64,000 bases of DNA from Arthrinium phaeospermum (Eukaryota > Ascomycota > Sordariomycetes > Amphisphaeriales > Apiosporaceae), in assembly GCA_006503535.1 (NCBI GenBank), contig QYRS01000004.1:1426001-1490000 (forward strand), in the 5' to 3' direction. The translations under genes were made by a program, and so were the position numbers. Shown piece by piece: positions 10,880-51,592 of the stretch. Each line of letters starts with the position of its first letter. Within the stretch, counting starts at the first letter, position 1. Under the pieces are notes generated by a model. That model did no database searches. It worked only from the letters and a program-made list of their open reading frames with translations, and was not told the DNA's origin.

Positions 10880-10888
10880 TTATCAGAT
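10880..10888 (-). promoter_or_regulatory. ATCTGATAA, iron GATA-factor type site
   Basis: Exact match, on the minus strand, to ATCWGATAA. This is the extended GATA motif bound by the fungal iron repressors SreA/SRE/Urbs1/Fep1. It is the most distal of the four sites, about 1.75 kb upstream of the siderophore transporter start. Confidence 0.45.
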
Positions 10889-11412
10889 CCGATGACTGCC
10901 AACTGCATGCAGGCCGACCCTGTCGACTGGCTGGAGGGAAAGAGGAACCTGGTGGGAGCGGGCTAATTTGACCCCTATCCACCTTCCATCATACATGTGT
11001 CAGAAACGAGGTAGCGTGCAGATGGATTTAGCACTTGCATACGACGGACCCAAAGACTACTGTACTGCTGTTGGCTGTCCCGGCCGAGTGGTCTGGCTCC
11101 TTTCGAGAACTCCTCTTTGGCTAGATGTCTACTGTACTCGAATCCTCGGGCCAAGGGTCGGCCGGGCATCAACACTAGCTAGCATACGGCGGCAAAGCGG
11201 TTGCTGGCAGAATATTGAGCTGAGAGCGGCAACCCATCGTACCGCAACGCAAGTCAAGCACAAAACTTGCTTGCTGTGCGCAAGTTAAACCCAAGTCCAC
11301 TCCGCCCTCGGAGTTCCACAGCTCTGCGGGCAGTTGAATTGGAGGTGTACATAAGCATGCCGATCAGGATGGTGGCTGGCGTCCATGGTCGCCAATAGGA
11401 TCATGTCCAACC

Positions 11413-11421
11413 ATCTGATAA
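11413..11421 (+). promoter_or_regulatory. ATCTGATAA, iron GATA-factor type site
   Basis: Exact ATCWGATAA match, about 1.2 kb upstream of the siderophore transporter start codon. It belongs to the cluster described in the findings. Confidence 0.55.
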
Positions 11422-11622
11422 AACCAACCCCTTCACTGTGAGCAAGGGGTGCCGTCAACTATTCCGCCAAGTACATACATATACAAATTATATCTTTCAG
11501 TGCTCCTGTGCCTCATCGACTACATCGAACGTGTGAAAATGGGAATAGTTGTCATCTGAAAAGAGTCAAAGAAGCCTTACTGTACAGTATCTCTAGACTT
11601 TGCTTAGCTCCAAAATGGGCCG

Positions 11623-11651
11623 ATCTGATAAAAATTTTATCAATCAGATAA
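11623..11651 (+). promoter_or_regulatory. Paired ATCTGATAA and ATCAGATAA sites
   Basis: Two exact ATCWGATAA motifs in the same orientation at 11623-11631 and 11643-11651, their starts 20 bases apart (about two helical turns). Between them an opposite-strand TGATAA is formed by TTATCA, so the block holds three GATA cores. Such close pairs suit the two-zinc-finger iron repressors of fungi. About 1 kb upstream of the transporter start. Confidence 0.65.
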
Positions 11652-12641: not shown

Positions 12642-14510
12642 ATGAGGTTCTTTTCCAAGCGGCGCGGGCCTGTCGAGGCTCCGGTCGTCGAGGAGGCGCC
12701 GCGGACCGACGCGGCCGAACCCGAGGCCGCCATCGGCACTGGCTCCGGCGAGAAATCCCAGCAACTCAACACCACCGACGGCAATATCTCCGACAGCGAT
12801 GCCATCTCGACCGGTGCTCAGGAAGGTGTCAAGGACATTGAGGCCATGACCAAGGTCTGGCCCAAGTCTCACCTGATTCTTGCCTATGTTCTGATCTGGA
12901 TCATTTACTTCATGAACGCGCTGCAACAAGGAACGGTTTCCCTGCTGTCGGTCTATGTGACCAGTTGGTTCGGACAGACGTCGTTGACGGCCGCCACCTC
13001 GGTCATGTCTAGTCTGATCGGTGGTCTGTTCAAGCTGGCACTGGCCAAGATCATTGACCTGTGGGGTCGGCCTCAGGGCTATGCCTTGATGGTTCTGTTC
13101 ATGACCATCGGTTTGATCATGGAGGCCGCTTGCCAAAATCTCGAGACTTACGCAGCTGCTCAAGTCTTCTACTGGGTTGGGTAAGTTGTTGCTGAATCGA
13201 CTCCTCTGTTTGAGATGTTACTAATACATTTGTTTTATCCGTGTAGATACAATGGTCTCGACTATGTGATTAGTGTTTTCGTCTCGGACACTTCGTCCTT
13301 GAAAAACCGAGGCTTGATGTTTGCGTTTGCCTCGTCGCCTTTCATTATCACTGCCTGGCTTACCGGTTACCTTGCGGATGCCTTCAATGAAGGCCCTGGC
13401 ATTCGATGGTGCTTCGGCGCGTTTGCAATCATCATGCCTTTTATACTCATGACTCTATGGGTGCTTCTCATCATTAACTATCGCCGAGCTAAGAAGATGG
13501 GGGTCATGCCTGTGAGAGCTGCCAGTGGTCGCACCAAATGGCAGTCTTTCATCCATTATGCGGAGGAATTCGACATTATGGGCGTATTAATCCTCGTGGC
13601 TGGACTGGCCCTGTTCCTGCTGGCCTTCAACATCTATTCTTACCAGACCGAGGGGTGGAAGTCGCCCATGATCATCTGCTTCATCATCTTCGGCGGCCTG
13701 CTCATCGCCGGATTCGTCGTCTGGGAGAAGTACTTCGCCCGTGTCACTTTCATCCCCTTCCATCTGCTGATGGACCGTACCTGCATGGGCGCCTTCATTG
13801 TCTCCGGCAGCGTGTTCATCAGCTTCTATCTCTGGGACAGCTACTTCCAACCCTTCCTGATCATCGTCAATGGTCTTAACACTGTCCACACGGGCTACGT
13901 GCTCAACATCTACACCATCGGCTCTTGCCTCTGGTCTTTCGTTGTTGGGTGGGCAATCCGCTTCACTGGCCGCTTCAAGTGGATTGCTGTCTACTTTGCC
14001 ATTCCCTTCACTATCCTGGGGGCTGGTCTGATGATCAACTTCCGAGAGCCTGACGTCAACATTGGCTACATTATCATGTGCCAGATCTTCATCGCTGTCG
14101 CCGGCGGTGGCATTGTCATCACGGAGCAAGTCGCGGCCCTGGCCGCCGCATCCCACCAGCACATTGCCGCTGTCCTGGCCATCGAGGGTATGTTCTCCAG
14201 CGTCGGCGGGGCCATTGGCACCACGGTTGCGACCGCCATCTGGACCGGCATCTTCCCCGGCAAGCTTGAGGCGTATCTGCCCGAGGAGGAGAAGGCCAAT
14301 TACATGACCATCTACGGCGACCTGTCAGTCCAGCAGGGTTTCCCCATCGGCAGCCCTGCCCGTGATGCCCTTGCCCGCGCTTATGGCGAGACCCAGAAGC
14401 TCATGCTCATCGCTGCCACCGTAGTCCTGATCATCCCTTGGATTGCCGCCATGTGCTGGAGGGACATTGACGTCAAGAAGTTCAAGCAGGTCAAGGGCAC
14501 GGTGGCGTAA
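12642..14510 (+). CDS. Siderophore-iron transporter (MFS, SIT family)
   Basis: Predicted proton-coupled uptake transporter for ferric siderophores, 600 residues. Exons are 12642-13180 and 13247-14510; the 66-nt intron starts GTAAGT, has a CTAAT branch-like site and splits a Gly codon. Family marks are the cytosolic N-terminus ending GVKDIEAMTKVW, the stretch LAKIIDLWGRPQG after the first helices, ETYAAAQVFYWVGYNG, and DTSSLKNRGLMFAF. These match the fungal Sit1/MirA-MirC group of 14-helix major facilitator proteins rather than sugar or drug carriers. The start ATG has A at -3. It converges with the small peptide genes on the other strand (441 bases between stop codons). The four iron-GATA motifs upstream suggest repression when iron is ample. 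Which siderophore it carries cannot be read from sequence. Confidence 0.92.
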
Positions 14511-14950: not shown

Positions 14951-15207
14951 TCAGCAACAGCCCCAACAACCACAACACTTCTTGCCGCTGTTGCAACAGC
15001 TGGTTACAGGAGAAGAAATCAGTTAGTCAATATGTGTGGGTTTTGAGCATGTAGCCATTCGAGTATCAGGATAACTAACGAGGGCATAATCATGCAATGA
15101 GGCCCCTTAAAGACCGGACTCCTCTCGTCGATAGTGGTGAGGGGACTGGCCTGTACCAGGGCGGCAGCCATGATAATGGCCATGGAAGTGAAGGTGATGA
15201 TTTGCAT
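14951..15207 (-). CDS. Small secreted cysteine-rich peptide, paralog 1
   Basis: Unrecognised family. The spliced gene encodes 58 residues: exon 1 15080-15207, intron 15000-15079 (GTTAGT ... CTAAC branch ... CAG), exon 2 14951-14999. Residues 1-20 form a signal peptide (MQIITFTSMA start, VQA-S cleavage site). A short pro-like segment contains ERSP. The C-terminus holds all eight cysteines as C-x5-CC-NSG-KK-CC-G-C-WG-CC, ending at the stop. The second exon is only 49 nt and carries seven of the eight cysteines. The neighbouring gene upstream has the same design, which is what makes the splice model credible. The dense cysteine pairs could be a disulfide-knotted extracellular peptide or a thiolate metal binder. 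The location beside a siderophore transporter and CFEM genes fits metal handling, but that is inference. Confidence 0.75.
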
Positions 15208-15586
15208 GGTGTTTGTCTTGTTTCTCGGTAGACTCAGGGTGTGCAAACCAATATTGAGAACTGTACGGATGCTAGGGTCAAAAACTGATGGACGGTCGGC
15301 CTTCAAACGGGAAGTCTTCTTGATATGGGGTTTGAGCCTGTTTCTATGCTACCTACTCCTTTCCCCCCTGAAAAGCTACAGGTTCAACATTCGGCCCAAC
15401 TGCCCCAGCGACACTCGGTGATTGACTCTAAACCATGCCAGTAAAGAACAGGAAGCGACCAATAACGGCGGCGGCGGCGGCGATTACCAATAGCTTCCGC
15501 AGTGGAAGCCAGCCGCTTGCTTACATGTTGCTGTCCCAAACCTTCTCCCAAGCCATAGTTAAGTGGTCGTGTAGTTGAGGTCTTGC
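15208..15586. other. Spacer between the twin peptide genes
   Basis: 379 bases separating paralog 2's stop from paralog 1's start; it must hold the promoter of paralog 1. I see no exact ATCWGATAA motif here. A GCC/GGC-repeat segment lies at about 15468-15482. Confidence 0.6.
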
Positions 15587-15881
15587 CTAGCAGCAACCCC
15601 AGCAGCCGCAGCACGTCGTGCCGCTGTTACAGCAGCTATGAGCACGAACGAAAAGGGGTCAGTTCAAAAGTTGTCCTATTTCGAGGAATTGGGGGAGGGG
15701 AGTTATTTGGCAATCAAACATACTCCGGAATCGCCTGGCACTTTGGGTCGCGGGCAGTGAGGAGGAGCGAGCCCGCGCCGTCAGCGGCGGCGGCGTCGGT
15801 GGCGCCAGAGATGGGACCGGCGTGCACGAAGGCGGCCGTGGCTACCACAACGAACATGGAGGCGAAGCTGGTGAATTGCAT
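15587..15881 (-). CDS. Small secreted cysteine-rich peptide, paralog 2
   Basis: Tandem paralog of the preceding gene, 68 residues: exon 1 15724-15881, intron 15636-15723 (GTATGT ... CTGAC branch ... TAG), exon 2 15587-15635. The signal peptide spans residues 1-21 (MQFTSFASMF start, VHA-G cleavage site). A pro-like Ala/Gly/Asp segment with ARDP follows, then C-x5-CC-NSG-TT-CC-G-C-WG-CC to the stop. Intron phase (2), exon-2 length (49 nt), cysteine spacing and terminal residues equal those of paralog 1, while signal and pro regions have diverged. Selection therefore appears to hold the cysteine module. A TATA element lies 178 bases upstream of the ATG. Function unknown; a processed extracellular peptide or metal-binding peptide are the main options. 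Confidence 0.78.
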
Positions 15882-17613
15882 TTTGCGTGGCGTTGGGGCA
15901 AATTGTATTACTTGTAGGGTCTCGATTTGGATTGGACTTGGTAGAGTATATCCTATGAGCAGATGAAGGCAAATGAAGGTAGCTGGATATTACTTCTCAA
16001 GTTTGTAAAAAAAGGAGTTGGAGAGAGAAAAATAAAAACCTGGCGAGGCAGGGGGGCCTTTATACACACAGAGATGACCCTCTGCAGTGGCTTTGCATCG
16101 TCTTTTTCTCATATCCATCAGAATCAACCGTGACGAGGAGGCCTGGGGTCACCTACCGGCCGTTCATTCATAGATACCAGAGCGTATGACCAACGACCAA
16201 CAGCCAACGCGACAACTACATCCGATTGTCGCGAAAAGGGGGAACAAGCCACCGTGTTGCACGCCTTGCCCATCCCTAGATAGTTCGCCTAAGAGGCCAA
16301 TCTTCTTTCACCCATCAACCCCCTGACATAAGCCTTATGCAGTTGTGTCCCAGCGGGGTCTCTGCTGTTGGCTGTTGGGTCCGGGGAGGACCGAATTTCC
16401 TCCCGGCAGTCCGGCTCCAAACTCAATCGGTTTGTTTGCTCGAGGACAAGCATTCTGCTTCATGTAAGTCAGAAAAAACCCTTGCCTGCCTGTTCTACCA
16501 CGCGCCCCACCATCACCACCCCTTGCTCAATCACGTCGTATCACACACTGTTGGTCCGTCCTCGTTTTGTCCAGGCAAACAAATAAGAAAAGCCAATCGC
16601 CTTTCTCGGGTTTCGGTGCTTGAACGGCAGTTAAAACGATATAAGAAAGCATACGAGTGACATAAGATGCCGGCGCCGAGATTTGCCTCAGGCATATGCG
16701 ACTACATGATATGTGCAGACCAACAGTACGATCCAAGATGCAAGCTCAGTGGTTGGGGGCGAGAAGAGGCAATTCGCGTCTCGCGCAATAAGGTCTGATC
16801 TAGCGAACATCCATCCACATTGCAACCATCATCGAAATAGTAATCAAGCACAGAAGCTCTAGCTGCTGTGACCAACCGACAGCAAGGAGGTATCCAATAG
16901 GAGTAACCGGATGGTGCACTTTTGCCAGTGGACATACGTGCGTAATGATAAGTCCATGTGGGAGAAGTGAGCTGTGAATCGAGTAGAAATGCAAGGAGAG
17001 GACGTACACGAAGTTCCAATTAATGGTTGCCGGAGAGGAGGTATGCGAGGATTGTGTAAGTACCTAGCATGGGGAGAAGATTGCGGCTAGATGATACCAC
17101 GCTTCGGGGCCGACAAGGACGTTCTGACGCGCCGAGGCCGGGCTGTGGCCGGCATGCATGCACTTTGCCGCCCCGTGCCGTAGCTGCATAGTTGCCGTGG
17201 TCCCCGTCGCCTGGACTAGTCTCCGAGGAATGTAGGCCTTCGCACCTAATGGATACTTGATCTTCTCGAGAGACCGGACGAGGGAATACTGTTGAGGAGC
17301 CGTGATCTCGCAAGTGAGTTCTGCTGAAACAACTGGTTTAGAAGCATCATATTGCAGAAGACCAACCAGGCGCGGTCACGCAATGGAGTTGCTGTCGTAC
17401 ACGCTAATCATTTATTAAATTATCAAAAGCTATCTGGACTTTCAAGTCTTCAGATAGCCATTGGAATCGAAAGCTATTATTGCTACAATCATTGCCCATT
17501 ACTGTTTCATTGCGCCACATCTTGTGCGTATGTGTGTATATGTCTGACCAGGACTGAGGTCCTTTCAGATTAGGTCCCTGCCATGTGGTAGACCGTGAAC
17601 TTTGTCTTACAAA
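15882..17613. other. Gene-free stretch upstream of peptide paralog 2
   Basis: 1.7 kb without a supportable gene. The first 200 bases are the promoter and leader of the peptide gene; the rest holds the 3' flank of the CFEM gene. No repeats or motifs stand out. Confidence 0.55.
16059..16064 (-). promoter_or_regulatory. TATA box of peptide paralog 2
   Basis: TATAAA on the minus strand, 178 bases upstream of the start codon at 15881 and followed by GG. A strong TATA suits a highly or conditionally expressed small secreted protein. Confidence 0.5.
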
Positions 17614-18379
17614 CTACAATGCAACAACAATTCCGACCATACCAGCCAAAACTCCACCAACCACCTTCGCGACGCCCTGGGTAGCCGCAGCATTGGCGGG
17701 CGGGCTGGTCGAAGAGGCCGCGGCGGTGGAGGAAGCCCCGCTGCCACCGCTCCCCGTGGGCGTCGGGACCGAGGCGCTCTGGGTAATGGACATGGACGTG
17801 GGCACGGACATGGACGCCGTCGCGTTGGAGGGGATCGAGGTCTGGATGCTCAGCAGGGGCTGGGTGAGCGGGGTGGTGGCGGCGGTGCCGGACGACGGCG
17901 TCGTCATCAGGCTCATGGAGCCGGTGACGGCGGCGGTGCTCGGCATGGGCGAGGCGCTGAAGGTCAGCTTGCCGGCCGCGAAGCTCGAGCAGATGTCGTT
18001 GCCGGCCTGCAGGGCCTGGCCCAGCTCTTTGGAGGAGCACTTGCTCGTCAGGCACGGCGCCACGATGGGCGCCAGGGCCGACTGGGTGGCCGGGCTGCAC
18101 TGGCACGATATATCGCCCGCAGCGCAGCCGACCTTGCTGATGGCGTCGGTGAGGCAGGGGATCTGTATTTGGCGGGAAGAGAGATAGAGGGTCAGTTTAA
18201 GCTCTTATGGTGCTTCCGTTGTTTATGTGCCGCGAAACGAAACGAAACGAAACAAGACCCGAGTCATGGATATCGCCAGATGGTTGGGGTCAACGACTTA
18301 CAGCGCAGTCAGGCTCGCCAACAAAGTATCCCTGGGCAGCAGCAAGGGCCGCAGAGGCGATAATAACAACAGCCTTCAT
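17614..18379 (-). CDS. CFEM-domain protein with GPI-anchor signal
   Basis: Predicted cell-surface haem/iron-binding-type CFEM protein, 208 residues. Exons are 18302-18379 and 17614-18162, with a 139-nt phase-0 intron beginning GTAAGT right after codon 26. Signal peptide at about 1-16. The CFEM domain has the full set of eight cysteines at 25, 29, 39, 46, 48, 63, 68 and 84. Asp43 sits three residues before C46, the position that supplies the iron ligand in structurally known CFEM haem carriers. Then follows a long Ser/Thr/Pro-rich stalk (about 90-180) and a hydrophobic C-terminal tail (VVGGVLAGMVGIVVAL), as expected for GPI attachment. In yeasts such proteins relay haem; in filamentous fungi other CFEM proteins act in adhesion or virulence, so the ligand is not certain. 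Its upstream neighbour is a diverged copy. Confidence 0.88.
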
Positions 18380-19254: not shown

Positions 19255-20230
19255 TCATGAGTCCACCGTCATACGCTGGCCTTCCCTTTTCCTTGCCGAT
19301 TGACACCCACGGCAATGCTCGCATTGACAATCACAATCGTGCCTTTTGCGAAAACGTCGGAGTATTCGCCAGTTGACAAAAATCAGTATTGGCAACCCGA
19401 CACCCATTCCCACTCCTAACCCAATAGCAAGCTTGTGGTAATCTGGTCTCTGCGCCGGACAGTTGGCAGCCGTAGTCGTTGGCGCCGATGGTAATGCCTG
19501 AGTGGTCGTGGACGCTGTGAAACTAACTGAAGCTGGAGCTGTGACCGTCGTTGTCGTCATCATCAGGAGCGTCGTCCACGTAGAAGGTACCGTGGAGTTG
19601 CAGGCTGTGACGACTGCGACGGAACTTCCCGTGAGCCAGAGACGGGATGTTGCTTGGGAAAACCTTGACGAGCTGCACGGAAGAGCCGCTGACGTGGCGT
19701 CCGTCGTTGTCCAGGACGTGGCCTCGGTGGTGTTGAAAGAAGAAGGAACAGACGAGAAAGAAGTACCGGTGAAACCGTGGCTGCTTGATCCGTCCGATGT
19801 AGCGCTGGCGTTTCCCGGGTGGCTTGCCGAATACGACCGGCCAGCGCGGAAAACCTCACAAGACCTGGAAAAGGCATCCAAGGCGCTCAGCTCTATGTGG
19901 TCCGTCGACGATGCCTCCGACCGGCACAAGCGACGGACAAGACTCGCCGCCAGCGACGTGATCCGGCGCTGCTCGCTCCCGCACTGGCAGTCAAGAGTCC
20001 ATACGTAGCAGTCGTGGATAGACGATATCGCGGCTGCAACGGCGTGGCGCTGTTTATTGAGGCAGCAAAGGTCAGCTCTACCTATATGTCTCGTCTCACT
20101 CCTTCCAGCTAGTAGGGGGTATATCAGGGGGAAAGGGGGTTGTCCCTACAGCGCATTGCGGCTCTCCATCATAGAACTGTGCTGCACAAACGCCAAACAG
20201 CAGCATCACGGTGCCTATAGGGCCTTTCAT
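19255..20230 (-). CDS. Diverged CFEM-like single-pass membrane protein
   Basis: Predicted type I membrane protein of 291 residues, exons 20150-20230 and 19255-20049. The 100-nt phase-0 intron has an atypical GTAGGG donor, a good GCTGACC branch site and a CAG acceptor. Exon 1 ends GEPQCA exactly where the neighbouring CFEM gene ends GEPDCA, with the intron at the same place, so the two are probably tandem duplicates. The domain keeps C26, C41, C48, C50, C69 and C91 but lacks cysteines two and seven. The position of the iron-ligand Asp is Thr, although Asp47 lies next to C48. A Ser/Thr-rich mucin-like stalk follows, then a transmembrane helix at about 233-254. The basic cytosolic tail carries five cysteines (C-D-C-Q-C-E-H-C-R-G-C, 266-276). 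It may sense or anchor at the wall rather than bind haem. The exon 1 model rests on homology to its neighbour. Confidence 0.7.
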
Positions 20231-20881
20231 ACCGGATTCGGTGTATCACGAGTACACAGAACTTGATCTCAGGTGCATCAACTTGTTATGCATGTGGATG
20301 AATGCCATTATGGATCAAAACATGCGGGCCTCAGGAGCCTGGCTGGTCTTTCTTATACCGACAAGTCGCCAAGTCATGATCCAGAACCTGGTAGTTTGGA
20401 GAATATACCGGCATGACAATAGAAAGTGTTCGTATCGCCCCGGCATTCTGCTCTTTCAGTTGTGGTTCATGTCGCACTGAGACTGATTCAGATAATTAAA
20501 GAGCAAGACAGTAAACGGTTCCTCTCCAAATAAGCGGCACTCTGTATTAACTTCGAGAACTACAAGACCTGAAATTCAAATATGAAGATGGTAATGGTAA
20601 GAGCCAAGCATTGCCGGGAATAGACGGGGTCGTTGATTAGTGAAGTAATATTTCGAGCATTCAAATTGCCTACGCTAGCTAGTTTGTCCAACGCCAGTCA
20701 GCCTCCTATGTGCTATGCAAGATCGTGAAAACATTCCGTAAACCAGACACCCCATTGCCAATCAAAACATCAGCCAGCAAGCACTGTTTTGCTGCTCAAT
20801 CACTTCTTTCTCATAATAAATATATGTATCAATAAATGTAATATCCTATTTCGATAAGATCTGCCATCCACTTCTTTCAAT
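20231..20881. other. Intergenic region between CFEM-like and lysophospholipase genes
   Basis: 651 bases. It holds the promoter of the CFEM-like gene (a TTCAGATAA near-match to the iron motif lies near 20487) and AT-rich 3' sequence of the lysophospholipase gene near 20820. No gene seen. Confidence 0.5.
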
Positions 20882-33175: not shown

Positions 33176-36100
33176 CTAGTTCTTCCAAGCCTTACTCAAA
33201 GGACTGGCAATCTTGGGCGCAAACTGCAGACTCTTGCGCCTTGCGGCCATCAGTCTCATCATGACACCCTGGTCCTTCTTCTGGCTCAGCAGACCCTGGC
33301 CAAGTTCGGCGTAAAGGCTGGGCTTGGGCGGTGCAGTCCGCATGAGCATCGCATCCTGCTCAGGAGAATCTTCGTCGTCTTCGGCGTCCGTCTGAGCAGC
33401 CGGTGTCTCGGGGGCCACGTCCATGGCAAAACGAGCAATGGTCTCCGGCGCGGGCGTCTTGGGGACCGGGGTGAGCATGCCAATGGCATCCCAGTCCTCT
33501 TCGCCGGCTGCGTCCATCTCCTCGTCCTCATCACGGTCGGACGGTGTTCGCATCCAGGCGGTGCTGTCACGGCGACTGACGTGGTTGTTGGGCACGGTTT
33601 GGCAATCACGGGGTGCCGAAGTTTGCTTCATGGGCGTCACGAGTGTGCCGTTGTTGTTGGCCAGAGCCTTGGGTTCCATGCTCTTGCGGCGGCGTTGGCC
33701 ACCACGGGGCACAAGACTGGTGTCGACGTAGTAAGGGGCCTCGTCAACCCACTCGTTCTCACGCTCACAGCTGTTACGCTAGTTAGTTTTGACTTCAGAA
33801 AGGGTGTTTGGAATTGTTGGACTCACTCTAATACCCAGCCAACTCCAACACACTGCACGACTCCGCCAGACTCGCGGACCTTCTCCATTGTGCGTTTGCC
33901 TCCATCCTTGAAGACGACGTGTGTGATTCCGATTTTCGATTGCGAGGACTCGTCGCTGTTGGGACTGCTGGGGTTCCAGGTCCAGTTCTTGACGCAGCGA
34001 CCGCCCATTGAAGTCAGAAGATCAACAAAGACGGCACTCGCGTCGGCACCCTCAGTAGTGTGGACATCCACGAAGCAAACCGCACCACGTAGTAGGGCAG
34101 GGTTGATATCTTTACGAGGTGTACGTGCTGGTGTACCCATCGCCGACCAAAGTTCGGACTTGGAAGGGGTAACGGGCGGCTGCTCATTGTCATCATCATC
34201 CAGATCCATCTCATCATCCTCGTTGTCCTTGGTCGGGGAGTATGAGATGACAGTCGCGTTTCTAGAGAGACCTCCGGGGCGTGTGACTTGAGCACGAGAT
34301 GCGCTAGCGCTGCGTCGCTTTGCGCTTCTAGGGGTATCATCGTCAGCCGGCTTGAGGGGGACCTTGGTTGTAGTGTTGAAGGTACGCATGGTAGAAGTGC
34401 GCTTCGGGGTGACGGGAGGGACACTGGACATTGTCACCCGGGACCGGCCAGTAGCGCCACCGAGTAGAGCTGGATCGATGGGAACAGCATTCTCGTCCCC
34501 GTACTCCTGGCTAGCTTCAGACATGGAGTCGTCGTGGCGTTGGTGCTCCCCAGCCTCCTCGGCTTGGTCAGGCTCGACGAGGGACATTTCATGGGCCTCG
34601 GCAGCGAGCTCCATGTCTTCCTCGGTAACAGGGATGTCGTCAAAGACGGGGTCATCGTAGTTTGCACCGATATCAGCCTCCAAGGCGGCCAGCATCTCGG
34701 CATCCGCATCGAAGCTGATTTCGGACTCATCGGCTTCCATCTCTGCTCTCACTCTCATCTCATCCTCAAAGTACGAACTCTTGGCCGGCGACGCACGATT
34801 CGATTTGGGTGTGTTGACTTCAACCAAAGAAAGGTCCTCTTCGCCAACATCATCAGCCGGCGTACTCGATTGGCTACTGCCGAGCTTCAGAGGACTGCCT
34901 GCTCTCCAATCGTTGAGTTGCCTAGCAAGAGGGGTGAATCCGAGCTTCGAGCCTCGCGAAACGGATCGGATGGCTCGGTCAGCAGCCTTGATAGCGCTCG
35001 TGGGCAGACCGTTTCTGAGCGTCTTGGTGGCGCCCGGGGTAGGGGTAGCGGGGACGGCGCTCAATGTGAGCGTTGCTTCCTCCTGGGGCTTTCGTCCACT
35101 GGAAGCAAGCTCATCCTCAGACTCGTCAGAGTCGTAAGGTACCATATCTTTCTGTCGCAATCCGAACATGGGGTTAGACGGCTTGATTGCAGAACGGGGA
35201 GGAGAAGACTCCGGGCTAATGTCGTGAGCTCTGTCCTCCTCAGCATCCGACATGTCAACATCCATGGAGTCCTCATCTTGGTGTGCCTCCTCAGGTGCTG
35301 TAGGCGCTGGCTCAGGCTGAGCTTCAAGCTCGGCTTCATCGGCCGCGATGGTTTGTTCTGGTTCGGGAGCTGCATCAGCAGTTGCTGAGCGCTTCTCCTG
35401 CAGAGCAGGATCCGCGTAGCGTGGCAGCACAGCAGACAGTCGGCCTGGGAACTCAAGTTGCTGGGGTGAATCGAACCGGATCTCAGCTTGCTCAACCTCG
35501 GCAACCTCGGGCTGCTCAACCGCGGCCTCAGTCTCGACTACGGCGCTGTCCACGATATCATTATCCGCCACGTGAATTTCTGACTGAGCTTCGGATACCT
35601 CCGATATTCCGGATACTTCGTGGGCCTCGTCAGCCACATTATCTTCTGCCCCAGAGGCGCCCTCCGCGGAGGGGGCCGAATCCTCGGTCTTGGTCACTGC
35701 AGAACGGATAGGCGAGCCCAGAAGTTTCAGTGGAGATGCGGGACGTTTGGCGGGAGACCCCATCAGAGACATTTTCAATGGCGACTTGGTCCGATCACTC
35801 TCTCCATCTGTCGGGGGTTGAAATCGTGCTATCGGAACCTGGGGTCTCTTGGCAGGGGACTGAAGCAAGGATGCCTTGGTGGGCGACTGGGTCAAATCCG
35901 AAGCATCCTTGGATGGGAAGAGTAACGCCGGGACTCCTTCGACTCTCTTGGCGGGCGACTTCATCGCATCTTTGAAAGGAGAGGATGCGGGCCTCCGGGC
36001 TGGGCTAGTAAGGACCGTGGCACCGGGAGCGTCTTCGGGTTGGTGTTCGGCTGCTTCCTCAGTCTCGTCCTCCTTCTCGGCGGTAGGGAAACCATGATCG

Positions 36101-37095
36101 ATCATCTTGAAAGCGCTAGGTGGCTTGACTGGGCTCTTCATCATGGGTTTGAGAGGCGTTTTCTCGTAAGTGGCCAACTCGTCATCCGAATCCGAGTCTC
36201 GGGATAAAGACCGGTTCAAAGTATCCTTCTTAGGGCTCAGAGGAGCCGGCTTTTCCTTCTTGTCATCGTCACTGGTGGTTGTCCGTGTACTGGCACGCGT
36301 GGCTCTGGCAGCAGTGCCCGCAGCCTTTCGGACCGGCTTGGCCCGCATGCCTGTTGCTGTCTCGGCCTTCTTCTCTTTGGCCTTGGATGTCGTTGCTGTC
36401 GTTGTAGCAGCAGGTACGACGTTTTCCTTCTCCGGCTCCTGGAAGGAGACCGACTTCTTAACGTTGACGACCTTGGCAGTGGGCCGCGAGACGGCTGACT
36501 TGAGACCGGGAGTGGGATTCGTAGTGGCCGAAGTGCAGACTGTGCCCGGCGCCTTCTTTGTCACGGCAGTTGCACGAGTTCGAGCTGACTTCTTGGGAGG
36601 TTCGGATGGCGTATCGGCCTTATCTTCTTCCGGCTGCGCAACCTTGCGGGTGGTGCGGGTTCGTGTCGCCTTGACAGGCTCGGGCTTCGAGGGCCCAGTG
36701 GTGGTTTTCTTCGCCCTCCCACGAGTTGCCCGGGTTGGAGCAGTGCTGGAAGATGAATCGTTGCTCTGCTCTGGCTGGTCTGGCTGCTGTTGAAGGGCAG
36801 GCTCAACGATCTTCTTGGGCCTGCCGCGCGCTCTAGGGGGCTTATTCATGGTGTCTGCTGATGTGGGCGCCAGCTCATCTGCCGTGTCGTGGGTTTCCTC
36901 ATCGTTTTCCTCGTCAGCTCTCGTTTTTCGCTTGGTCGAAGGAGCGGTTCTAACGGCGGCAGCTGCCTTCGATGCGGTGGCTTTTGATGCGGCAGCTGCC
37001 TTGGTGGTGGTAGATTTTGGAGCGCTGCTGCTGCCGCCGGTGGCAGCAGCGGCGCGGGCTCTCGTGACCCGTTTCGGCGGGCTCTGAACATCCAT
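33176..37095 (-). CDS. BRCT-domain protein with many SP-x-K sites
   Basis: Nuclear protein of 1287 residues, exons 33827-37095 and 33176-33770, separated by a 56-nt intron that splits an Asp codon inside the BRCT domain. The first 300 residues are Lys/Arg/Ala/Thr-rich with AT-hook-like and nuclear-localisation stretches (RARGRPKK). Between about 310 and 475 there are at least seven SP-[ATVL]-K motifs (KSPVKPP, KSPAKRV, QSPTKAS, QSPAKRP, KSPLKMS, GSPAKRP, ASPLKLL), with more later; these are minimal CDK-site contexts. An acidic middle follows. The single BRCT domain lies at about 1005-1115, with GGRCVKNW, THVVFKDG and the closing GWVLDCERENEWVDE (conserved Trp and Cys). BRCT domains bind phosphopeptides in DNA-damage and cell-cycle control. 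I cannot assign a yeast ortholog. It is divergent to the zinc transporter gene. Confidence 0.85.
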
Positions 37096-49391: not shown

Positions 49392-51592
49392 GATCCAGGG
49401 GTTTGATGGTTAACCCCTTTCTTTGGTCGCTATATACGCCCTATAATCTCGCTGTCACAGCGAATGAGCATCGGTAATTATGCTGCGTGTTCAGGGAACG
49501 CGACGGGGGACTTTGGGGTCTTATTTGCGAATAGGCCATAATGTAATGGACCCGGTACAATCATCGGCGTTCACATAGTACTACAGCATACGGTGATGCG
49601 GATAAACATGGGCGGAGATACACCAGTCATTTTGTGTTTTCCTGCGGGTAGTTACGTCTGTCTTTCTCTTGTTGGGTCTCTGGAAATACTGCTACCAGAT
49701 TGGCATCTCTCACACGCCTGAAACCAAGGCAAACCAATAATCAATGCAGCTTCCATTATCATTATCGCTCTTGGTTTGGTGCCGTCATGTGCGACATACC
49801 CCTTATCGACATGAGCTCCAGAGTATTGATATGCAGCAGGTTGTTGCCTGCTGGTCGGGAGAGGTCGGCGAGAAGTTGTTGTGCGTAACCTAATAGCAAA
49901 CCACGGGAATTGCGGAAGGAAAACGACGGGTTATGGCAGGGCAGGGGGAGGGTGCCACGCAAGAGAAAGCAGTACTCGATTGCGACCAATAGTAGCCTGG
50001 CTCGCTTATGTTTCTTCATTCAGTTCGATCAGATAGGAAGGAATAGAGCTTCCGTGATTCCCGTTTCGGGCTACTCAGGCTACTCGGGGTCAGGGGCTTG
50101 GGGGATGCCCACCCCCACGATCACAACTGGCAGAATATATGAGGAAGTAGAGGATGAGGCGGTCAATTAGTCAATACCGTGGGGGAGGGATAAGTAAATG
50201 GTGCTTCGCTCCGCTACCACTGGTTTATGAATAGCTTGGATGGTGGTGCAACTTGTATGTATGCGTGTAGGCGCGCTGCCAGTATCCGTGGTACGGGAAG
50301 CCCTCCTTTACCGCCGAGGACGATCGCTTCTGACAAGACACGTATACGATGCTGTTCGGTTGAATATTCCGAACTACCTAACCAGTGCAGTCCCACTTAC
50401 AGACTTAGACGTCCACAGTCGTGCTTGTCAGATTCCCTGTAATCCCCGAGGCCGAGGAAGCCACATATCGAGATCATCTTCTGCATACATACTCATACCC
50501 AAGTATATATATATACACTTAGGAGGCATGTGCAGTGGCTTATCACATCAGGAACATACGACGACTCCGGCGAAGAGCCCAAAGAAAAGACTGGACTGTC
50601 TGCCGAGCCCATTGTCATTTTGCACAGGGTGGTATCCGGAATGCGGCACCACTTGTCTTCTCACGAGGATGTAGGCCTGCTTCTTAACGCCACTTACAGA
50701 CATCTGCCAGTACATACGACCATATGCACCTGATAGCTAGGGATCCCGTCCGCTCTCCCATATATAAGCAGGTGACAGCCGGATTAGTAGTTGCGTCGGT
50801 GACGAGCAGCGAATCCCTGGTGTTGTATGTTTTTGTTATCTTTTGCTTTTTGTTTGGTTTTGACGTTTCGTCCGAACCTTTGACATGTCTTGTCGTCTTG
50901 AAATTGGGTTCCCGGTTGAGAATGCGCATGGCTACATCTTAAGCACCTGCTATGGTTCTCTGGTTTCGGGACCTGTAGGAACAAGAGGTCCTAAGGTCCT
51001 ATCATACAGAATTACTTAGAACAATATCGATGATGTAGTTAGCAGTGGCATATCCTGCCATGTTTGCATCATTGAAGTGATATATTCAGTGGTGATCGCT
51101 ACTGACGAAGGGGAAGATGCCATACTGAATCGCTAGGTTGTAGAGTTTAAGGGGAGCTTTCCACTGCTGCATGAGCTGCTACGAGCTGGAGTTTAGGGGA
51201 ACTTTTAGCGTTGGAGCTCCCCACAGACAGCCCCTGGTCCCTGAGCTATGGTGGATTCATCATGCACCTAGGGCACTTAGGGCACCCGCCTAGGATCAGC
51301 CTCGCCAGTGACCAACTAAGTCCAGCACTTGGGAGTAGTGGTCCATTACTTATTACTATTGCTTACGTATCGTCGCTCGTAGCTCCAGTCACCAGTCAGT
51401 CGCAGGTGGTGTCCGTCCGTCCGTTCTTGCATTCATTTTCCAGTAGTCCGACCATCAATTCTTCCCTACCTTGCTGTCTTTGCCTAATTTTTAGACTTTA
51501 TCGCGTCAATGGGCTTATGAGTCGGACTTAAGACCATGAGGCTTCTCTAGCCGCGCCGTCGGAACTTTATATAAATCTCCAAATTCCCAACA
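49392..51592. other. Gene-free stretch
   Basis: 2.2 kb; nothing supportable. A short TATATATATA run lies near 50505. The last few hundred bases, with CT-rich sequence and TTTATATAAAT just before 51593, are the promoter and leader of the phosphoesterase gene. Confidence 0.5.

Follow-up and report, generated by a model that had tools for sequence, protein, structure and literature searches.

Narrowly distributed, secreted cysteine-rich peptides without an assigned role are common in fungi, and one report gives 1,235 to 1,619 predicted effectors per genome for seven Apiospora/Arthrinium genomes (PMC12202052). Fungal small secreted cysteine-rich proteins (SSCPs) of this effector-like kind are shorter than 200 amino acids (aa), with a hydrophobic N-terminal signal. 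Metallothioneins, in which cysteine can make up about one third of the residues in fungi, are cytosolic, rich in C-x-C repeats and, to our knowledge, devoid of aromatic residues. Hydrophobins and CFEM proteins are secreted and contain eight cysteines, in much longer chains and in another cysteine order. Precursors of ustiloxin-type (dikaritin) RiPPs combine a signal peptide with a C-terminal core. Hepcidin, a vertebrate iron hormone and antimicrobial peptide of 25 residues and eight cysteines made as a prepro-peptide, is presented in PMC9779829 both as a disulfide peptide and as an octathiol ligand of Zn or Cd.

The two tandem genes described here, A and B, encode what appears to be a variant of the small secreted cysteine-rich fungal peptides. 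They lie in the 64-kb stretch of DNA that was analysed (the window), which is part of a 4.08-Mb contig in a 48.4-Mb genome of 19 contigs. An earlier note on this DNA had proposed coordinates and splice junctions for both genes as well as a shared design, and our gene models match these proposals throughout. Each gene consists of a signal-peptide-like exon and a 49-nt exon separated by a phase-2 intron, both introns have GT-AG ends with CTGAC (B) or CTAAC (A) located 5' of the acceptor, and both products have eight identically spaced cysteines. The observation that the A/B pair represents real genes is thus confirmed, with splicing predicted from sequence and conservation. The features of the pair are the following, with putative cleavage points.

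15881-15587, minus strand: gene B, two exons, 68 aa, eight cysteines
15724..15881, minus strand: gene B exon 1, encoding a predicted signal peptide (residues 1-21), a pro-segment (residues 22-44, ending LLLTAR) and the start of the presumed mature peptide, DPKCQAIP(D)
15636..15723, minus strand: gene B intron, 88 nt, phase 2, donor GTATGT, acceptor CATAG
15658-15662: branch-site-like CTGAC in the 88-nt intron of gene B
15587..15635, minus strand: gene B exon 2, 49 nt, CCNSGTTCCGCWGCC, then stop TAG
15207-14951, minus strand: gene A, two exons, 58 aa, eight cysteines
15080..15207, minus strand: gene A exon 1, encoding a predicted signal peptide (residues 1-20), a short pro-segment (residues 21-29, ending IDER) and the start of the presumed mature peptide, SPVFKGPHCMIMP(S)
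15000..15079, minus strand: gene A intron, 80 nt, phase 2, donor GTTAGT, acceptor CCAG
15022-15026: branch-site-like CTAAC in the 80-nt intron of gene A
14951..14999, minus strand: gene A exon 2, 49 nt, CCNSGKKCCGCWGCC, then stop TGA
16058..16064, minus strand: TATA-box-like TATAAAG upstream of gene B, followed by a pyrimidine-rich tract; found by eye, putative function

With hyphens at the predicted signal and pro cuts, the B protein reads MQFTSFASMFVVVATAAFVHA-GPISGATDAAAADGAGSLLLTAR-DPKCQAIPDCCNSGTTCCGCWGCC (68 aa) and the A protein MQIITFTSMAIIMAAALVQA-SPLTTIDER-SPVFKGPHCMIMPSCCNSGKKCCGCWGCC (58 aa). Kyte-Doolittle analysis places a hydrophobic stretch at the N-terminus of both, both end in C-x5-CCNSGxxCCGCWGCC-stop, and in A and B alike the eight cysteines of the presumed mature part are spaced 5,0,5,0,1,2,0.

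The two precursors resemble SSCPs in being short (68 and 58 aa), in having many cysteines (eight each) and a pro-site with a single arginine, and in their narrow distribution; their hydrophobic N-terminus would serve as the secretion signal. They differ from them in being far denser, with eight cysteines in 24-29 presumed mature residues, in carrying the module on its own 49-nt exon, and in having no match to any model searched. Pfam returned no family at E ≤ 10 for A, B or their database relative P0002, which includes the CFEM (PF05730) and hydrophobin models, and NCBIfam, PHROGs and PDB sequences gave no match to the A/B peptides. Literature searches with the string CCGCWGCC and the order C-CC-CC-C-CC gave no papers, and the results listed by further searches contained nothing on the A/B family. 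The family is therefore undescribed within the libraries and literature searched, as the earlier note had supposed. AlphaFold2, run on P0002 alone, gave a mean pLDDT of 47.2, too low for the model to be informative. A and B depart from metallothioneins in their signal-peptide-like N-terminus and in a tryptophan that is conserved, being found in P0002 as well as in the A and B modules; each module contains one C-x-C.

In layout, hepcidin is the closest functional analogue, sharing the order C-CC-CC-C-CC and the prepro-peptide (PMC9779829), whereas its loops of 2,1,4,2 contrast with 5,5,1,2 in A/B. In local alignments to hepcidin, 445 of 1000 shuffled B queries and 261 of 1000 shuffled A queries scored as high as the genuine ones. 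Homology by descent is thus rejected, the alignment being no better than composition, and hepcidin serves as an analogy that provides a precedent for both a disulfide and a metal-binding reading and evidence for neither.

Protein searches covering 5.8 billion clustered proteins identified six relatives, P0002-P0007, three of which are Apiospora records (P0004, P0006 and P0007); the fungus itself is therefore probably an Apiospora or a near relative. A B-type exon 1 was seen in five of them (P0002, P0003, P0004, P0006 and P0007), with identities to the window B exon 1 of 45/53, 46/53, 38/45, 49/53 and 46/49, and an A-type exon 1 in three (P0005, P0006 and P0007), with identities to window A of 36/43, 37/43 and 35/43. 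The first cysteine is kept in all ten exon-1 copies, window included (six B-type, four A-type), and so is the arginine-proline step before the module, which had been proposed as R-[DS]-P and is retained in the wider form R-[DES]-P in 10/10. A relative of B was also looked for in viral contigs, and none was found there.

The whole module is visible in one of the six relatives, P0002, in which the intron happens to be open and the C-terminus, CCDSGTTCCGCWGCC, presents the module with an N to D change. P0006 (Apiospora sp. TS-2023a) and P0007 (A. saccharicola) are each annotated as a single protein in which B exon 1 runs into the A gene, the fusion passing through A's 5' leader. As B+A annotation fusions, they show that B lies next to A in these genomes too, in an unchanged order, and the tandem B-A order is, judging from these records, conserved among relatives. 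P0003 and P0005 come from source contigs of 10,476 bases each and probably share one contig. In P0004 (A. marii), exon 2 is annotated in another, leucine-rich frame, RHDVLRLLGLLL..., and RHDVLRLLGLLL is also the translation of window B in that same frame; an intact exon 2 translated in the wrong frame would fit this, the match in itself being no proof of the cysteines. Exon 2 does not appear at all in the records of P0003, P0005 and P0006. The expectation that so small an exon would be hidden from gene finders is borne out by P0004, P0006 and P0007, each of which misses or mis-joins it. The sequences recovered indicate conservation of the peptide family in, at a minimum, several genomes related to Apiospora. 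Database entries of the family are unreliable as they stand, P0006 and P0007 being fused and P0004 out of frame in exon 2.

Homologs with stops or lost cysteines in the module had been set beforehand as a refuting sign, which P0007 possibly bears. The A-type part of P0007 ends CCKSGEK, and its A-type exon 1 has two proline-to-serine changes adjoining the first cysteine, so that the A-type module of A. saccharicola may be truncated or its gene model wrong. These changes, together with the appearance of the family in the protein search only in Apiospora records and three further contigs, could be read as signs of a formerly functional family that is now decaying, at least in the A copy. We consider such decay improbable, given that A and B both remain intact in the window, that their splice sites are conserved and the module strongly so, and that P0007 is a mis-joined gene model, for which reason its end may be an artefact.

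A degenerate codon pattern of the module (allowing ≤2 mismatches) matched twice in the 64 kb, each time with 0 mismatches, and matched in 0 of 100 shuffles of the window, which rules out a chance origin of the module pair. The A and B modules differ at 10 nucleotides in 45 sense bases, of which eight are codon-position-3 changes, all synonymous, and two are at position 2, exchanging K and T both times. When 10 random changes were simulated under neutrality, two or fewer nonsynonymous changes arose in 0 of 40,000 runs at kappa 1, 2 and 4, and in 4 of 40,000 at kappa 8. Over 42 nt each, the alternative frames gave 1 synonymous and 9 nonsynonymous changes (third frame) and 6 and 4 (leucine frame). 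A blastn comparison of locus A with locus B, setting aside a 321-nt stretch common to both cut pieces as trivial overlap, produced a sole above-noise match of 49 nt (79.6%, E 4.5e-8) that starts at the exon 2 acceptor AG and ends one base into the stop codon; five other matches of 15-17 nt (E 0.15-0.52) are noise. Taken together, the synonymous excess, the simulations, the frame comparison and the restriction of the A/B alignment to exon 2 identify the cysteine frame as the constrained one and the duplication as old. Since 10 of 45 module bases differ and just noise aligns outside exon 2, a recent duplicate or repeat is ruled out. A and B are old, diverged tandem copies whose exons 1 agree at 14 of 43 residues, and the earlier suspicions that the copies are not recent and that the peptide end is selected both hold: selection on the module in the cysteine frame is supported.

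The same comparison bears on whether the genes are in truth expressed from another frame or without splicing, with exon 1 ending in the intron (in B, ...IPEYV) or exon 2 read in the leucine-rich A. marii frame. The latter is used in the P0004 annotation, and C/T changes in TGY codons are often silent in it too, as its 6 to 4 ratio over 42 nt illustrates. The cysteine frame, at 8 to 2 over 45 nt, is nevertheless more conservative and stops directly after CC in A, B and P0002, whereas the leucine frame meets a stop inside B exon 2 and yields C-terminal tails that are unlike in A, B and A. marii. The other-frame or unspliced reading is accordingly disfavoured and, in our estimate, the least likely of all those considered.

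Searching the 48.4-Mb genome with A, with B and with a codon pattern did not reveal a third member, at limited sensitivity: the B query recovered only its own exon 1, which shows how far its sensitivity is limited, and the A query recovered its own exon 1 as well as exon 2 of both genes; a single chance hit, L005 on C1, lies antisense in another frame. The CCGCWGCC codon pattern (24 places, Gly as GGY only) occurs genome-wide with 0 mismatches at two places, both of them the A/B pair, and with ≤3 mismatches at least 594 times on the forward and at least 403 times on the reverse strand, compared with 124 and 103 for a reversed-pattern control. Among the matches listed, 20 near-misses were inspected, namely all three with one mismatch and 17 with two; the 20 comprise 12 picked by eye and L008-L015. 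Ten were examined on both strands, nine lying opposite glutamine- or proline/glutamine-rich frames and L015 in low-complexity sequence; the other ten, viewed on one strand only, looked like low-complexity cysteine/glycine or unrelated short frames.

We consider it probable that A and B are protease-released, disulfide-dense extracellular peptides with a paired role in defence or in interaction with a host or competitors; secretion, cleavage and disulfides are deduced from the precursors, and the role is a guess by analogy with what is generally known of fungal small cysteine-rich secreted proteins. Both small secretory precursors would lose their signal peptide in the ER, and a kexin-like or other protease would then cut on the C-terminal side of the conserved arginine in R-[DES]-P, a single-R cleavage being less certain than one at KR or RR. 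The released peptides, of 24 residues in B and 29 in A, would each close their eight cysteines into up to four disulfides, giving a fixed scaffold, C-x5-CC-x5-CC-x-C-x2-CC plus G, W and G, on which a short loop could vary (KK in A, TT in B). The KK/TT pair is the only residue difference between the A and B modules, P0002 has N/D and P0007 KSGEK, and from this variation we infer that the x5 between the first two CC doublets is the variable loop. The N-terminal tails differ in length and charge (+3/-0 in A, +1/-2 in B), and a cationic A might act beside a near-neutral B as an extracellular pair.

The surroundings of the pair had been taken to favour metal handling, and contain the following features.

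12642..14510, plus strand: MFS transporter (PF07690), convergent with gene A, intron 13182-13247 by manual join
17614..18378, minus strand: small secreted CFEM protein (PF05730), two exons, domain in the downstream exon
19255-20232, minus strand: two-exon gene whose product begins like a signal peptide, has cysteines that look CFEM-like by eye and carries a hydrophobic stretch close to its end
10880..11651, strand unassigned: four SreA-type ATCWGATAA motifs (10880, 11413, 11623, 11643), 1.0-1.8 kb upstream of the MFS start at 12642
3486: single ATCWGATAA
31266-31276: two ATCWGATAA overlapping as a palindrome

The MFS transporter is presumably of the siderophore-transporter type, an identity for which PDB sequences and NCBIfam gave no confirmation. 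PF05730 matched 17614-18204 with E 1.6e-8, while Pfam gave no CFEM call for the gene at 19255-20232, beyond which, on the same side as the CFEM protein, lies a lysophospholipase (PF01735). In Aspergillus fumigatus, iron genes under SreA control have ATCWGATAA over-represented as an extended motif in their upstream regions (PMC2610380). The window contains seven such motifs against 0.83 expected, a number reached in 0 of 100 shuffles, and the four upstream of the transporter suggest that it is an iron-regulated siderophore transporter. The motif is absent between 11652 and 31265 and hence from the promoters of the peptide and CFEM genes, and the ORFs scanned near the palindrome gave no convincing Pfam match. 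With 142 occurrences in the window against 137 expected, the shorter HGATAR stays at background level. Given these two results, the iron link is one of address only; of the neighbours behind the original claim, the MFS transporter and one Pfam-confirmed CFEM protein stand, and metal handling by the A/B peptides is weakly supported.

This evidence bears on the possibility that A and B are extracellular or secretory-pathway metal-thiolate peptides whose eight thiols coordinate Cu, Zn, Cd or Fe, much as a secreted metallothionein or metallophore would, with a tie to the adjoining iron genes. Cysteine makes up one third of presumed mature B (8/24), the motif-bearing MFS transporter and the CFEM protein flank the pair, and reduced hepcidin, an octathiol of similar size, binds two Zn or Cd ions according to PMC9779829. 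Against the motif distribution above, and with 24 exon-level CFEM matches in the genome that render one nearby CFEM weak evidence, we regard this reading as unlikely. An ER-targeted peptide so rich in cysteines would be expected to oxidise, the secretory signal thus favouring disulfides over metal thiolates, and the conserved tryptophan is unlike classical metallothioneins as we know them. In our ranking, the disulfide peptide for extracellular interaction is favoured and the metal thiolate placed second. A fungal hepcidin analogue, arisen by convergence and not by descent, in which an extracellular octathiol pair, flanked by a siderophore transporter and a CFEM protein, would handle or signal metal status, is very unlikely; such peptides might sequester Cu, Zn or Fe or act on metal transporters of the fungus, competitors or host.

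The leader-core layout, invariant core and genus-level distribution would also fit a RiPP, with signal and pro-segment as leader and the C-terminal module as a core tailored by adjoining enzymes. In contrast to dikaritin precursors, A and B lack core repeats and have no UstYa enzyme nearby: PF11807 (24 exon-level matches at E ≤ 0.001 in the search) has no match in the window, its nearest one on the contig being ~295 kb away. Among the part of the window ORFs scanned, the nearest identified genes are the transporter, the CFEM protein and the lysophospholipase, and we judge this origin highly improbable, even slightly more so than the hepcidin analogue.

The peptides A and B, predicted to be disulfide-dense, represent a conserved, apparently secreted family missed by annotation, its 49-nt exon being skipped, frameshifted or fused in P0004, P0006 and P0007, and the family has probably been missed in further genomes. 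Should peptides with such micro-exons turn out to be frequent, the number of secreted peptides in fungi has been underestimated. A scaffold with up to four disulfides in 24 residues is unusual, and its small size puts synthesis, and with it direct tests of structure and activity, within reach.

Elsewhere in the window, a minus-strand ORF of 1090 aa (33823-37095) is without a Pfam match. No tRNA was found in the window, and the only RNA family match there is a 5S rRNA gene on the plus strand at 50712-50831 (Rfam).
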